Below, piece by piece: positions 12,999-17,756 of a stretch of 64,000 nt of DNA. Below the pieces are notes generated by a model. It was not told where the DNA came from, did no database searches, and saw nothing but the letters and a program-made list of their open reading frames with translations. How positions within the stretch are numbered: position 1 is the stretch's first letter; every line of letters begins with the position of its first letter. Made by a program: the position numbers and the translations under genes. Origin of the DNA: Rubellimicrobium arenae (lineage in GTDB: Bacteria; Pseudomonadota; Alphaproteobacteria; Rhodobacterales; Rhodobacteraceae); NCBI RefSeq assembly GCF_017916275.1, contig NZ_JAFMST010000010.1, positions 2,726 through 66,725 on the forward strand. Direction: 5' to 3'.

Positions 12999-15900
12999 CT
13001 ATCGGCCTTGCGGCTCGCGGTCGAGCGGGAGGTCGATGGTGCAGCGGAGTTCCGCGTCTCCCAGCTCGTAGGTGGTCTGGGCGCCCAATGAGTAGGGGAG
13101 CGCCCGTTCGATGAGCCGCCGCCCGTAGCCGCCCCCCCGCTCGGCGGCGGAGGAGGGGCCCGTTTGCGTCGGCGGCAGCTCCTCCTCGCGCCATTCGATA
13201 TGGACCTGCCGCTGGCCTTCAACCTGGTGGAGGCGCCACATCACGCTGAGCCTCCCTCCTCGACCCGACAGGGCGCCATACTTCCGGGCGTTGGTGGCCA
13301 GTTCGTGGATGACCAGGGCCAAGGTCTGCACGATGGTGGGGCGGATCCTCACCGCGGGACCCTCGAGCCGGACCGTCTCGCCCTCCTTGGCCCCCAAGGC
13401 GTCCAGTTCCAGCCTGAGGAGCGCGTGCAGGGTGATGGGCTCCACCTGTGCGCGGGACAGCAATCCCTGCACGCGCGAGAGCGCGGCCATGCGGTGGTTG
13501 AACTCCTCGCGGAAGGCCTCCGTCGGGCCCGTGTGCGCCATGGTCTGGTTGGCGATGGAGCTCACCACGCCGATCAGGTTCCTCGTGCGGTGCTGAAGTT
13601 CGGTCACGAGCATCTCGAGCCGCTCGCGGGCCTCGATCTCCTCGGTGGTGTCGTGCGAGAGGCCGCCGATCCGCTGCACGCGGCCGTCCGCATCGCGCAG
13701 CGGGAAGTCGGTGTTGCGGATCCAGCGGGTCTGACCGTCCGAGGGCCGGATGACGCGATAGGTCTCGGTCGCGTTCTCGCCCGCCCGCACGCGCCGCAGA
13801 AGGTCCAGCACCTTCTCCCGGTCCTCGGGATGCACCAGCTCCACCCAGCGGAAGACCTGGTTGCCGCGCAGCGCCTCCTCGCGGGGGAGCCCATAGACCG
13901 TCTCGTAGGCGGGGCTCAGATACTCGTAGGCCAGGCTCTCGCAGTTGCGGATCCAGAGCACGTCCGAGGACGCCTCCCCGAACTGCCGGAAGCGCGCCTC
14001 GCTCTCGCGCAGCGCCTCCTCGGTGGCCCGCCGCTCGGTCACGTCCTGGCCCACCTTGACGAAGCCGGTGACGGTGCCGTCCGGGTTCGTGAGCGGGCGC
14101 GCCACCCCGTCGATGAACACCCGCGCCCCGTCCTTGCGCAGGTGCCAGCGCACGTTCGGGGCATGGCCCTCCTCCTGCGCCGTCTGCCGCTCCTTCGCGG
14201 GCACGTCCGCCGCCCGGTCCTCGGGCGTGTAGGTGATCTCCATGGGCTGGCCCACCGCCTCCTCGGCAGACCAGCCGAACACCTCCTGGGTCCCCTTGGG
14301 CCAGATCGCGATGCGGCCCTCCGCGTCGGTGGTGAAGATGGCGTAGTCGGTCGCCGTCTCCACGATGGCGCGGAAGCGCTCCTCGCTCTCGCGCAACGCC
14401 GCTTCGGACCTCAGCCGCTCGGCCTCGGCCTTTTTCTTGTCCGTGATGTCGCGGAAGTAGACTGACAGCCCGCCGTCCGGGGTCGGGAAGATGCTGATGT
14501 CCACCCAGTGGCCCAGGATGGGGGAGACCGACTCCAGCCGGACCACCTCGCGCGTTTCGGCCGCGCGCCGGTGCGCCTTGTAGGGCTCCGAGCCCACGGC
14601 TTGGGGAAACTCCTCCCAGTAGACCCGGCCCAGGAGCTCCTCGCGCGAGCGGCCCCACCACCGTTCTGTCTCCCGGTTCACGTAGGTGAAGCGCCAGTCC
14701 CGGTCGACGGCGTAGAATGCGTCCGAGATGCTTTCCAGGATCTCGGCGTTCTGCAGGGCCAGGCTCAGGCGCTCCGCTTCGGCCTCCTTGCGCTCGGAGA
14801 TGTCATGCCAGAACACCGCGAGCCCTTCGGGCACGGGATAGGCCCGCATCTCCAGCCAGCGCGCGGTGCCGTCCTGCCAGGTGTAGCGGTGCTCGAGGGA
14901 GACAGGTTGCTGCTCGGCCAAGGCACGCTTGAACCGGCGGCCGATCTCGCTGTCCTCGGAGCCTGGGTAGACCTCCCAATGGCTGCGGCCGACGATCTCC
15001 GACAGGGGTCGCGTCTCCAGCCGCAGCGCAGCCTCGTTGAAGATCAGGATGCGGAAGTCGCGGTCCATGAGGCCGAAGGCCTCGCCCATGCCCCCCAGCA
15101 CGCTCTGGAGCCGCCCCTCGCGCTCGCGCAGCGCCTTCTCAGCCTCGCGCCGGGCAGTGACATCCCGCGCGGCGCCCAGCCACTCGACGATGTGGCCGTC
15201 CGCGTCCTTGATCGGCACGGCCCGCGACAGCACCCAGGCGGTCCGGCCCTCGGGATGCCTGACCCGGTGCTCCATCTCGAAGAGGCCCTGGGTTCGGATC
15301 GCCTCGTCGACGGCGGCGTGCACCCTGTCCCGGTCCTCGGGGTGGACGTAGTGCTCCCGCCAGTTCCCGGTGGGCCTGGGCATCTCGGCGAGGAGTCCCC
15401 GCCCCTGAAGCTCGCGCATCTCGCGCCAGTCGGGGCTCATGCGATAGACCACATCGTTGCTCGCGGTCACGAAGGCGCCGAAGCGTTCTTCCGTCGCGCG
15501 CAGGTCCCGGAGCTTGAAGAGCCGGTCGATCACCGGTCCCAGGATGGTGGCGTAGGTGCGCAGGAACTCGATGTCGTCCTGGTCGAAGTCGCGGGGCTCG
15601 GTGTCGTCGACCTGGAGTAGGCCATAGGCCCGCCGCCCCGGCAGGAAGATCGGCACGTTCACCAGCGCCACCACGCCCTCGTCCTTCATGAAATCGGGCA
15701 CGTCGAAGCGGTCCTCGCGGGCGATGTCCTGCGTGACGACGGGCTCGCCCGCCTCGATGGCAAAGGTCTCCGAGGAGTGCTCCTTCATCGACAGGCGCAG
15801 CTGGCCCACTACGCCCGCGGCCCAGCCCACGCCGGCGCGCACGAACAGGGTCTGGCGGCCGCGCTCGATTTCCAGGACCTTGGCGCGGCCGGTGCCCAGG

Positions 15901-16031
15901 GCCGCGCTCACCAGCCGGCAGGCCTCGGCCAGCACCGCGTCCAGGTCCTCGGACTGGAGCGCCACGTCGCCGAAGTCGGCCAGCACCTTGCGCTGCCTCA
16001 GCAGGGTCTCGCTTCTGTCGCGGTCGGGCAT
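12999..16031 (-). CDS. Multi-PAS/GAF HWE-family sensor histidine kinase
   Basis: About 1010 residues, soluble (no membrane helices seen). A GAF domain (about 20-170) is followed by five PAS domains (about 180-300, 310-420, 430-540, 545-660, 670-785), most ending in the PAC-type D(I/V)(T/S)xxxxxE link. The kinase core is of the HWE/HisKA_2 type: the phosphoacceptor His is near 814 in ELQHRTRNLIG, and the N-box is HELATNARKYGAL. I chose the ATG at 16031, which has AGG at suitable distance, over a GTG nine bases upstream. It is co-transcribed with the downstream single-domain response regulator. Ligand or cofactor of the GAF/PAS array is unknown; no Cys of the LOV motif (NCRFLQ) was seen. Confidence 0.9.
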   Translation of the reverse strand: MPDRDRSETLLRQRKVLADFGDVALQSEDLDAVLAEACRLVSAALGTGRAKVLEIERGRQTLFVRAGVGWAAGVVGQLRLSMKEHSSETFAIEAGEPVVTQDIAREDRFDVPDFMKDEGVVALVNVPIFLPGRRAYGLLQVDDTEPRDFDQDDIEFLRTYATILGPVIDRLFKLRDLRATEERFGAFVTASNDVVYRMSPDWREMRELQGRGLLAEMPRPTGNWREHYVHPEDRDRVHAAVDEAIRTQGLFEMEHRVRHPEGRTAWVLSRAVPIKDADGHIVEWLGAARDVTARREAEKALREREGRLQSVLGGMGEAFGLMDRDFRILIFNEAALRLETRPLSEIVGRSHWEVYPGSEDSEIGRRFKRALAEQQPVSLEHRYTWQDGTARWLEMRAYPVPEGLAVFWHDISERKEAEAERLSLALQNAEILESISDAFYAVDRDWRFTYVNRETERWWGRSREELLGRVYWEEFPQAVGSEPYKAHRRAAETREVVRLESVSPILGHWVDISIFPTPDGGLSVYFRDITDKKKAEAERLRSEAALRESEERFRAIVETATDYAIFTTDAEGRIAIWPKGTQEVFGWSAEEAVGQPMEITYTPEDRAADVPAKERQTAQEEGHAPNVRWHLRKDGARVFIDGVARPLTNPDGTVTGFVKVGQDVTERRATEEALRESEARFRQFGEASSDVLWIRNCESLAYEYLSPAYETVYGLPREEALRGNQVFRWVELVHPEDREKVLDLLRRVRAGENATETYRVIRPSDGQTRWIRNTDFPLRDADGRVQRIGGLSHDTTEEIEARERLEMLVTELQHRTRNLIGVVSSIANQTMAHTGPTEAFREEFNHRMAALSRVQGLLSRAQVEPITLHALLRLELDALGAKEGETVRLEGPAVRIRPTIVQTLALVIHELATNARKYGALSGRGGRLSVMWRLHQVEGQRQVHIEWREEELPPTQTGPSSAAERGGGYGRRLIERALPYSLGAQTTYELGDAELRCTIDLPLDREPQGR

Positions 16032-16476
16032 GGCGGGCACCTGCTTCCATAGACCTCGATGGCCTCCGGGGAGAACAGGAGCGCGCGAGGTTGGGTTTCA
16101 TGGCCAGGAGCAGGATGGCTCCCGGCGCTCGGGCCGGTCCTGCGCAGGCCCTCCGGGCCGTGCGGAGCCCCAGCCGAACCCCAGTGGCAGGGAACGGGGA
16201 CCCTCGGTGACGGAAGATGGCCCCGGTGGTCGTCCACCGCCTTGGGCCGGAGTTGCGAGCGGCCATGTCCATGACGATGCGCCATGACTGGGACGACCAA
16301 GGTGGTCCCCCACCTGTCAGAGCACCCCGCCGGAATCTCGCGCGGTCCGGAGATCCGTGCAGGGTCCCTGCGCCCTCAGGACGGCTTTAGGGATCAGGCT
16401 TTGCAGGAGCCGTGCGGCGACCTGCCACGGCGCGACGGGTTTCTCCTGCCCTCAGGATGGTATAGGGGGGTATCCC
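16032..16476. other. Divergent intergenic region upstream of the kinase and dmeR genes
   Basis: About 440 bases without a supportable gene. Frames here are shadow-like and rich in Arg/Pro. The right end carries the dmeR operator; no hairpin or RNA element was otherwise evident. Confidence 0.5.
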
Positions 16477-16478
16477 AT
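16457..16478 (+). promoter_or_regulatory. RcnR/CsoR-type operator with a six-G core overlapping the dmeR start
   Basis: Two arms, ATGGTATA (16457-16464) and TATCCCAT (16471-16478), form an inverted repeat with one mismatch around GGGGGG (16465-16470). A G/C tract flanked by A/T-rich inverted arms is the known operator form for RcnR/FrmR-type repressors. The right arm runs into the ATG, and the G tract sits six bases before it, so the same six bases can serve as Shine-Dalgarno sequence. Confidence 0.75.
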
Positions 16479-16752
16479 GTCCCATACCAAGACCAACAAA
16501 GACCACCTCCTCGCCCGGGTGCGTCGCATCGCCGGCCAGGTCGCCACGATCGAGAAGGCCATCGCCGAGGAGGCAGGCTGTTCGGTCGTCCTCCATCAGG
16601 TGGCCAGCATCCGCGGTGCCGTCCTCGGGCTCATGGACGAGCTGGTCGAGGACCATGTGCGCGAGCACGTGGCCCACCCCGACCTTTCCGAGGCGGCCCG
16701 CGCCGAAGGCGCCGAGGACCTGATCGCTGCCATCCGCCGCTACGCGAGGTGA
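16477..16752 (+). CDS. dmeR: RcnR-type Ni/Co-responsive repressor (DmeR-like)
   Basis: 91 residues, an all-helical CsoR/RcnR-family protein. Upstream in-frame codons exist, but the start MSHTKTN matches the RcnR N-terminus and follows the G-tract ribosome site. The metal-binding fingerprint of RcnR is complete: His3, Cys35, His60 and His64, which sets it apart from Cu-sensing CsoR (Cys-His-Cys) and formaldehyde-sensing FrmR. Apo-protein should hold the operator upstream and release it on binding Co(II) or Ni(II). The CDF exporter gene follows nine bases downstream, the dmeRF arrangement described in rhizobia. Confidence 0.88.
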   Translation: MSHTKTNKDHLLARVRRIAGQVATIEKAIAEEAGCSVVLHQVASIRGAVLGLMDELVEDHVREHVAHPDLSEAARAEGAEDLIAAIRRYAR

Positions 16753-16760
16753 GGACGCCC

Positions 16761-17756
16761 ATGCCCCACGACCATGCCATTCACGACCATGACCATGCTC
16801 GGGACGCCCTGACCCACGAGCACGTGTTCCTGGGCCGCGACCACGATGCGAATGCCCGCCGGACCCTGGCCGTGGTCGGGCTGACCTCCCTCATGATGGT
16901 GGGCGAGATCGTGGCGGGCTATCTGACCGGCTCCATGGCCCTGCTGGCCGATGGCGTCCACATGGCCACCCATGCGGGCGCTCTGGGCGTCGCGGCGGCG
17001 GCTTATGCCTTTGCCAGGCGCCATGCCCGCAACCCGCGTTTCACCTTCGGCACCGGCAAGGTGGGCGACCTGGCCGGCTTCTCCTCGGCGCTGCTCCTGG
17101 GCGTGGTGGCGGTTGCCATCGCGATCGAGTCCCTGGCCCGGCTCCTCGAGCCCCAGGCGGTGGCCTTCGGGTCGGCCATCCTCGTGGCCGTGCTCGGGCT
17201 CGCCGTGAACCTGATCAGCGCCCTTCTGCTCGGCCATGGCCATCATCACGGGCACCACCCGCATGATCACGGCCATCACCGTGACCACTCGCACGATCAC
17301 GGCCCCCACCATCACGAGGACGAGCAGGCGCACGGCCCCTTGGGGCGCCAGGGCGACAACAACCTGCGGGCGGCCTACCTTCACGTCCTGGCCGACGCGC
17401 TCACCTCGGTGCTGGCCATCGTGGCGCTGATCGCGGGCCGCACGCTGGGCTGGGTCTGGCTCGACCCGGCCATGGGGATCGTGGGCGCCATAGTGATCGC
17501 GCGCTGGTCGTGGAGCCTCGTGCGCGACTCCGCCCTGGTCCTGCTCGATGCCACCGATCCCGCGCTGGAGGAGGAGGTGCGCGAGCAGGTGGAAGGCGCG
17601 GGCGACGCCCGCATCACCGACCTCCATCTCTGGCGCGTGGGGCCCGACGCCCATGCGGCCATCGTCAGCGTCACGGGCCCGGTCGATGTCGAGGCGGTTC
17701 ACGCCCGGCTCAGGCCCGTGCACGAACTGGCGCATGTCACTGTCGAGGTGCGCTGA
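16761..17756 (+). CDS. dmeF: Cation diffusion facilitator, Co/Ni exporter DmeF
   Basis: 331 residues with six predicted membrane helices. The N-terminus is His-rich (MPHDHAIHDHDH), and a long His-rich loop between TM4 and TM5 (about 154-185) contains repeated HDHGHH-like stretches, typical of DmeF and Zn/Co CDF carriers. The transport-site motifs are LADGVHMATH in TM2 and HVLADALTSV in TM5, followed by a cytoplasmic ferredoxin-like C-terminal domain. It exports divalent metal in exchange for protons. Pairing with an RcnR-type repressor carrying the H-C-H-H fingerprint argues for Co/Ni rather than Zn. The CDS is probably the last gene of the operon. Confidence 0.9.
   Translation: MPHDHAIHDHDHARDALTHEHVFLGRDHDANARRTLAVVGLTSLMMVGEIVAGYLTGSMALLADGVHMATHAGALGVAAAAYAFARRHARNPRFTFGTGKVGDLAGFSSALLLGVVAVAIAIESLARLLEPQAVAFGSAILVAVLGLAVNLISALLLGHGHHHGHHPHDHGHHRDHSHDHGPHHHEDEQAHGPLGRQGDNNLRAAYLHVLADALTSVLAIVALIAGRTLGWVWLDPAMGIVGAIVIARWSWSLVRDSALVLLDATDPALEEEVREQVEGAGDARITDLHLWRVGPDAHAAIVSVTGPVDVEAVHARLRPVHELAHVTVEVR

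Follow-up and report, generated by a model that had tools for sequence, protein, structure and literature searches.

We analyzed a 64,000-nucleotide stretch of the Rubellimicrobium arenae genome (contig NZ_JAFMST010000010.1, positions 2,726 to 66,725; hereafter the window), in which the CsoR/RcnR-family (PF02583) repressor gene dmeR (16477..16752, +) is directly followed by dmeF, a CDF-family Co/Ni exporter gene (16761..17756, +) whose start we picked within a longer open frame. Positions 16457-16478 read ATGGTATA-GGGGGG-TATCCCAT, with a further G on each side (16456-16479). This is a palindromic operator with a left arm ATGGTATA at 16457..16464, a G6 core at 16465..16470 and a right arm TATCCCAT at 16471..16478 (all +); 7 of the 8 arm positions are complementary. 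The dmeR ATG occupies 16477-16479, so that 6 nt separate the end of the G6 core from the ATG, whose first two bases, A and T, belong to the right arm. The overlap of operator and start codon is confirmed in the window, and an initial annotation of this DNA had the coordinates and distances right: the six Gs occupy 16465-16470 and stop six bases short of the ATG, and the right arm extends over two bases of the start codon.

The 4.55-Mb genome contains a single exact copy of the 17-mer GGTATAGGGGGGTATCC and, when up to 3 mismatches are allowed, one further place that matches, compared with 3 for a reversed-pattern control. A search of the window alone with a 15-mer at up to 3 mismatches was uninformative, giving 1 match where 24 of 100 shuffles also match. 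Because the nearest long open reading frame upstream of dmeR is divergent, the operator probably serves dmeRF alone. A candidate second operator half inside dmeR (TCCCATACC, 16480-16488), which mirrors the left-arm GGTAT, was rejected as the codons Ser-His-Thr; it is absent from a Roseomonas relative (L080).

The dmeR product scores 74.6 bits against PF02583 (cut-off 22.8) and is the sole match to this family in the genome at E <= 0.001. Its ligand fingerprint His3, Cys35, His60 and His64, the HCHH pattern named in PMC7055735 and PMC6044271, falls in invariant columns of a six-row alignment (A1) whose rows and starts we picked by hand. Because Met1 and His3 are both invariant in this alignment, ATG 16477 is very probably the correct start. 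The protein stays below the equivalog cut-offs of RcnR (NF011613, 71.1 bits against 138) and FrmR (NF008464, 80.7 bits against 133), and the operator departs from the RcnR motif TACT-G6-N-AGTA given in PMC7055735, the window having ATGGTATA-G6-TATCCCAT. The dmeF product scores 460.6 bits against NF033827 (cut-off 250). The dmeF ATG that we chose follows the dmeR stop after 8 nt and is preceded by the Shine-Dalgarno (SD)-like sequence GAGGTGAGG, with an energy of -8.1 kcal/mol against the anti-SD.

We gathered dmeR-type genes from whole genomes and from named genome contigs (for the latter, the best 80 loci of more) and aligned their upstream regions on the start codon, preferring the start that yields Met-X-His. 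A total of 135 distinct upstream regions was reduced to 129 by dropping genes with no His at residue 2 or 3 or with <38% identity to whichever of four query proteins they matched best, and by merging rows that share an identical 50 nt upstream. The operator core ends exactly 6 nt before the ATG in 58 of the 129 regions, a proportion that is not a natural frequency, as the searches based on A1 were seeded partly with proteins of this overlapping class; any other distance occurs in at most 6 regions. A recount that ignores the arms (TA-core-TA with at least 5 G/C) places 53/129 at the 6-nt distance, and 200 shuffles gave a mean of 0.05 and a maximum of 1. Named records among the 58 belong to the Caulobacterales, Hyphomicrobiales, Sphingomonadales, Rhodobacterales, Rhodospirillales and Acetobacterales, at least six alphaproteobacterial orders, and in 57 of the 58 a DmeF-like CDF gene follows within 1500 nt. 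One locus (L075), which is short of one G in the core and has its T displaced by one, was added to the class by hand after inspection, giving 59 loci. In the best DmeR tree (91 columns, 129 rows), 53 of the 59 rows fall into one 61-row group with support 100 and the remaining 6 into a second group. This conserved register bears out the proposal of the initial annotation that operator and dmeR start codon are superimposed.

It is very improbable that the overlap is due to chance or to an annotation artefact, that is, to a wrong start codon or a spurious palindrome. An in-frame GTG does lie upstream of dmeR, at 16357, but the invariant Met1 and His3 speak for the ATG, and the recurrence of the exact register in 58/129 regions already contradicts such an origin. 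A strict 29-nt pattern of the arrangement, run over 347 class genomes, matched once, at the dmeR gene of G048; the pattern is too strict, and the window's own site is not matched by it.

Variants of the arrangement were seen among the collected loci. At L094, L096 and L100 the start codon has apparently slid by one codon: the operator TAT continues as TATC and is followed by the ATG, the core-to-ATG distance is 9, and the proteins begin Met-His in place of Met-X-His. Among these three, L094 alone has a TTG 25 nt before the core. Five Sphingomonas loci (L128, L131, L133, L142 and L151) carry a variant operator of the ATATACCCTATACCCCTATCCATT type directly before the ATG, with a differently placed core, and no clear SD was seen in them by eye.

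The shared bases of the start codon recur where no start codon is involved. Of 46 loci with the operator at least 12 nt upstream, the positions equivalent to those of the ATG hold A in 41 and T in 36, counts that are slightly favourable in that our site scorer gave these positions a small weight. This distant class excludes operator scores <19.5; it includes 14 rows in which no DmeF-like gene was found downstream, as well as the Sphingomonas locus L133, whose site the scorer probably misplaced. The mirror positions of the left arm in the overlapping class are T in 58/58 and A in 55/58. Because the same bases dominate in the 46 distant loci, the A and T of the ATG are genuine operator positions.

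The initial annotation had also taken the G tract as the SD of dmeR, with transcription starting upstream of the operator and metal-free DmeR acting as a roadblock to the elongating polymerase. The SD resemblance of the tract is real as sequence: it pairs with the anti-SD at -11.2 kcal/mol, close to the -11.7 kcal/mol of the canonical UAAGGAGGU, and stands at a good distance from the ATG. The strand of the core, however, is not conserved. The 58 same-register loci comprise 35 G-rich, 17 C-rich and 6 mixed cores, with CCCCCC, GGCCCC and GCCCCC among the alternatives found at the same distance from the ATG. Anti-SD energies have a median of -3.9 kcal/mol in the C-core loci, with 1/17 at or below -6, compared with a background median of -2.7 kcal/mol and 12% at or below -6 (n = 387); mixed-core loci have a median of -6.9 kcal/mol. 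Because C-rich cores in the same register pair with the anti-SD at near-background levels, translation of dmeR in the overlapping arrangement would generally not rely on the G tract. The claim that the tract is the dmeR SD thus finds no support, the register being kept with C-rich cores of which 16/17 lack SD-strength pairing.

We found a second conserved element further upstream. In an ATG-anchored profile of the 59 overlapping-class loci, T is present at -37 in 58, T at -36 in 48, G at -35 in 40 and C at -34 in 44. TT at -37 occurs in 47/59 loci, compared with a mean of about 3 for any one position between -110 and -25. The T at -37 is kept in 35/36 G-core, 17/17 C-core and 6/6 mixed-core loci, the sole exception being L075, whose core is one base short; because it is kept in all three alike, the promoter geometry appears to be independent of the core strand. 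We read T(T)(G)(C) as a -35 element, which in the window would be TTTCTC at 16440..16445 (+), assigned from class conservation (consensus T-T-G-C, -37 to -34 from the ATG) together with its own sequence.

Upstream of -37 the profile holds no strongly conserved element to -60, the weak preference for G at -46 amounting to 0.28 bits, and counts of TT and TTG as far as -110 yield no second peak of similar height. The idea of a longer leader, transcribed from a promoter further upstream, was rejected on these grounds together with the divergent orientation of the nearest long upstream open reading frame. A roadblock downstream of the transcription start is quite unlikely because no conserved element is present where its promoter would have to lie. 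The placement of the -37 element, identical in G-core and C-core loci, also speaks against it, and so does the operator of Sinorhizobium meliloti dmeR, which the available part of PMC6044271 describes in one place as lying between -35 and -10 and in another as overlapping -10, not as downstream of the start. The roadblock of the initial annotation accordingly lacks support: the conserved -37 element predicts a start 3' of the G tract.

In alphaproteobacterial sigma70 promoters the commonest spacer is 17 bp long and the start most often lies 6 bp beyond the -10, and T-7 is missing from most of them (PMC8407463). Measured from the -37 element, these spacings would make TAGGGG (16463..16468, +) the -10 hexamer, with T-12 and A-11 present and no T-7, and would place +1 at 16475, 2 nt before the ATG. 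Its TA (16463-16464) lies in the left arm of the operator. With TATAGG (16461-16466, 15-bp spacer) as the -10 the start would move to 16473, and a start on the A of the ATG would be at 16477. From these spacings and the precedents of NreA and CsoR described below, we predict that transcription starts in the region 16473..16477 (+), on the ATG or up to about 4 nt before it and 3' of the G tract, leaving a leader of 0 to ~4 nt. Because this predicted start falls downstream of the G tract, the tract would be promoter DNA and the dmeR mRNA probably leaderless. As a sequence feature of the class, promoter elements lie at a leaderless distance from the ATG, and the arrangement persists in C-core loci that pair little with the anti-SD.

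In a short-leader alternative, which seems unlikely, the AT-rich left arm (TATAGG, 16461-16466) would serve as the -10 and the mRNA would start some 4-8 nt ahead of the ATG, with SD-independent translation and a repressor that again covers -10 to +1. It would account for the T, A and T found at hexamer positions 1, 2 and 6 (-19, -18 and -14) of the left arm in most class members. It requires, however, that the spacer to the conserved -37 element be 12 bp long (15 bp for TATAGG in the window), and the window's hexamer at the 12-bp spacing is TGGTAT, which has no A at position 2. This hexamer at -19 to -14 is the sole geometry that puts a start near 16470, the last G.

The arrangement that we consider probable is a one-piece control site for dmeRF, in which the same 40 bp hold the promoter, the DmeR operator and the beginning of the reading frame. 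RNA polymerase would recognize the -35 element at -37 and a degenerate -10 that takes its TA from the operator left arm, and transcription would begin at or within ~4 nt of the ATG to give a leaderless dmeR mRNA without an SD. Metal-free DmeR would span the region from the -10 to the start codon and exclude the polymerase by occlusion. Co(II) or Ni(II) is expected to free the DNA from DmeR, upon which dmeR and dmeF would be co-transcribed, with dmeF translated from its own putative ribosome-binding site. Because dmeF has its own SD-like sequence, the two genes could be translated at different rates.

Several observations weigh against leaderless control from a one-piece site. The G-core loci pair like a real SD, with a median of -11.2 kcal/mol and 34/35 at or below -6, and among loci with dmeF the ratio of G to C cores is 34:16 in the overlapping class (7 mixed) and 3:25 in the distant class (4 mixed), an excess of the G strand that speaks for the SD and roadblock model. 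An SD-like tetramer is present between -18 and -4 in 3/16 C-core loci that have dmeF. A sigma70-consensus scan of 16040-16760 finds no promoter, and a terminator scan of the same region is also negative. The window's own -35, TTTC, is weaker than TTGC, the predicted -10 is a poor hexamer made of TA and four G/C, and a left-arm hexamer serving as -10 would shift the start a few nt upstream. We know of no transcript start for any overlapping-class dmeR.

A clear SD appears to be missing from some distant loci as well, the anti-SD energy being at or below -6 in 23/49 (a wider set) and an SD-like tetramer being present in 20/32 of those with dmeF. Shared ancestry may explain the excess of G cores in the overlapping class. 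In favour of the one-piece site, the best DmeR tree requires no fewer than 7 switches between G and C cores within the class, a rough count in that mixed cores were omitted and many branches are weak (27/122 inner branches starred), and the sister rows L084 (GGGGAC) and L101 (GCCCCC) differ in core strand. An independent-pairs test of G core against the overlapping arrangement, apart from phylogeny, comprised 2-3 pairs and had no power. A secondary role of the G strand in the overlapping class is possible. In a fuller version, which we regard as rather unlikely, the start codon would be a selected operator element locked to the promoter in a single register across alphaproteobacterial orders, and G cores would be favoured there because the G strand has a second job, such as serving as the SD of rare transcripts of greater length or as a signal to the polymerase on the non-template strand, making one 22-bp sequence operator, promoter and translation signal at once. 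The natural differences in core strand offer a ready test that separates DNA operator function from ribosome binding.

Other loci and the surroundings of the window gave further observations. In two dmeR copies of G040 (L019 and L023) the operator is 16-18 nt upstream, and 5-7 nt separate a good -10 (TATAAT or TATGCT) from the ATG, a layout that suggests a second route to a leaderless dmeR. The 20 nt directly 5' of the ATG (ATGGTATAGGGGGGTATCCC; window 16457-16476) are identical in L080 (Roseomonas acroporae), whose DmeR is 80% identical to that of the window, compared with 73% for the same-genus genome G004, and a horizontal transfer of dmeRF is possible. The divergent neighbour of dmeRF (12999-16040, -; 436 bp from dmeR) is a mechanically called open reading frame of 1013 aa that by eye looks like a multi-PAS sensor kinase.

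Considerable numbers of leaderless mRNAs are known from alphaproteobacteria, with 375 reported in Caulobacter and 171 in S. meliloti (PMC4117421, PMC3616915). In the literature searched, leaderless mRNAs were found for members of the CsoR/RcnR family and none for dmeR, a negative that is no proof of absence, as the primary dmeRF papers (Rubio-Sanz 2013, Dokpikul 2016) fell outside the search. A close precedent is NreA of Mesorhizobium, a Ni-responsive CsoR/RcnR-family autorepressor that, like DmeR, heads an efflux operon (nreAXY); its mRNA is leaderless, with +1 at the A of the AUG by rapid amplification of cDNA ends (5'-RACE) in an Agrobacterium fabrum reporter strain (PMC12724321). Its promoter resembles the predicted dmeR promoter in having a TTG -35 and in being compact, within 39 bp of the ATG, whereas its operator occupies the -35/-10 spacer (-30 to -12) and stops short of the start codon. 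NreA also belongs to a separate clade from DmeR, with NreX and NreY as exporters (PMC12724321). Three NreA-like loci of our collection (L011, L012 and L013), inspected by eye, have ATCCCCCC-type operators, and their ATG is preceded by a TTG at 35 nt and a TA-type hexamer at 12 nt, a layout that resembles the published nreA promoter. What is new at dmeR is that the operator is shifted downstream relative to NreA so as to contain the start codon, and that many genera keep this single register. A metal-stress repressor gene is thus able to carry its operator into its own start codon, and the predicted start, if true, would extend the leaderless regulators of this family to a widespread dmeR group.

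CsoR of Bradyrhizobium liaoningense (csoR-cueA) is a second leaderless member of the same protein family, with +1 at the A of the ATG by 5'-RACE and an operator that overlaps the -10; unlike DmeR it is a copper sensor with a divergent promoter, and the available text of PMC5057107 does not describe an operator reaching the ATG. The dmeRF pairs of S. meliloti and Agrobacterium tumefaciens have the same regulator and exporter and the same type of operator (ATAGGGTACCCCCCTATGCTATG, with a C6 core; PMC6044271). Escherichia coli RcnR shares with DmeR the family, a G6-type operator and the Co/Ni ligand pattern, but its mRNA is leadered and rcnR is SD-led, the 5' end being the AUG of a short upstream frame (PMC4965119). 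Outside the family, AcuR of Rhodobacter sphaeroides (acuR-acuI-dddL) is a TetR-family acrylate sensor, unlike DmeR; as predicted for dmeR, it is a leaderless, autoregulated repressor gene that heads its operon and whose operator overlaps the promoter, and different translation rates of the genes have been reported for this operon (PMC3017554).
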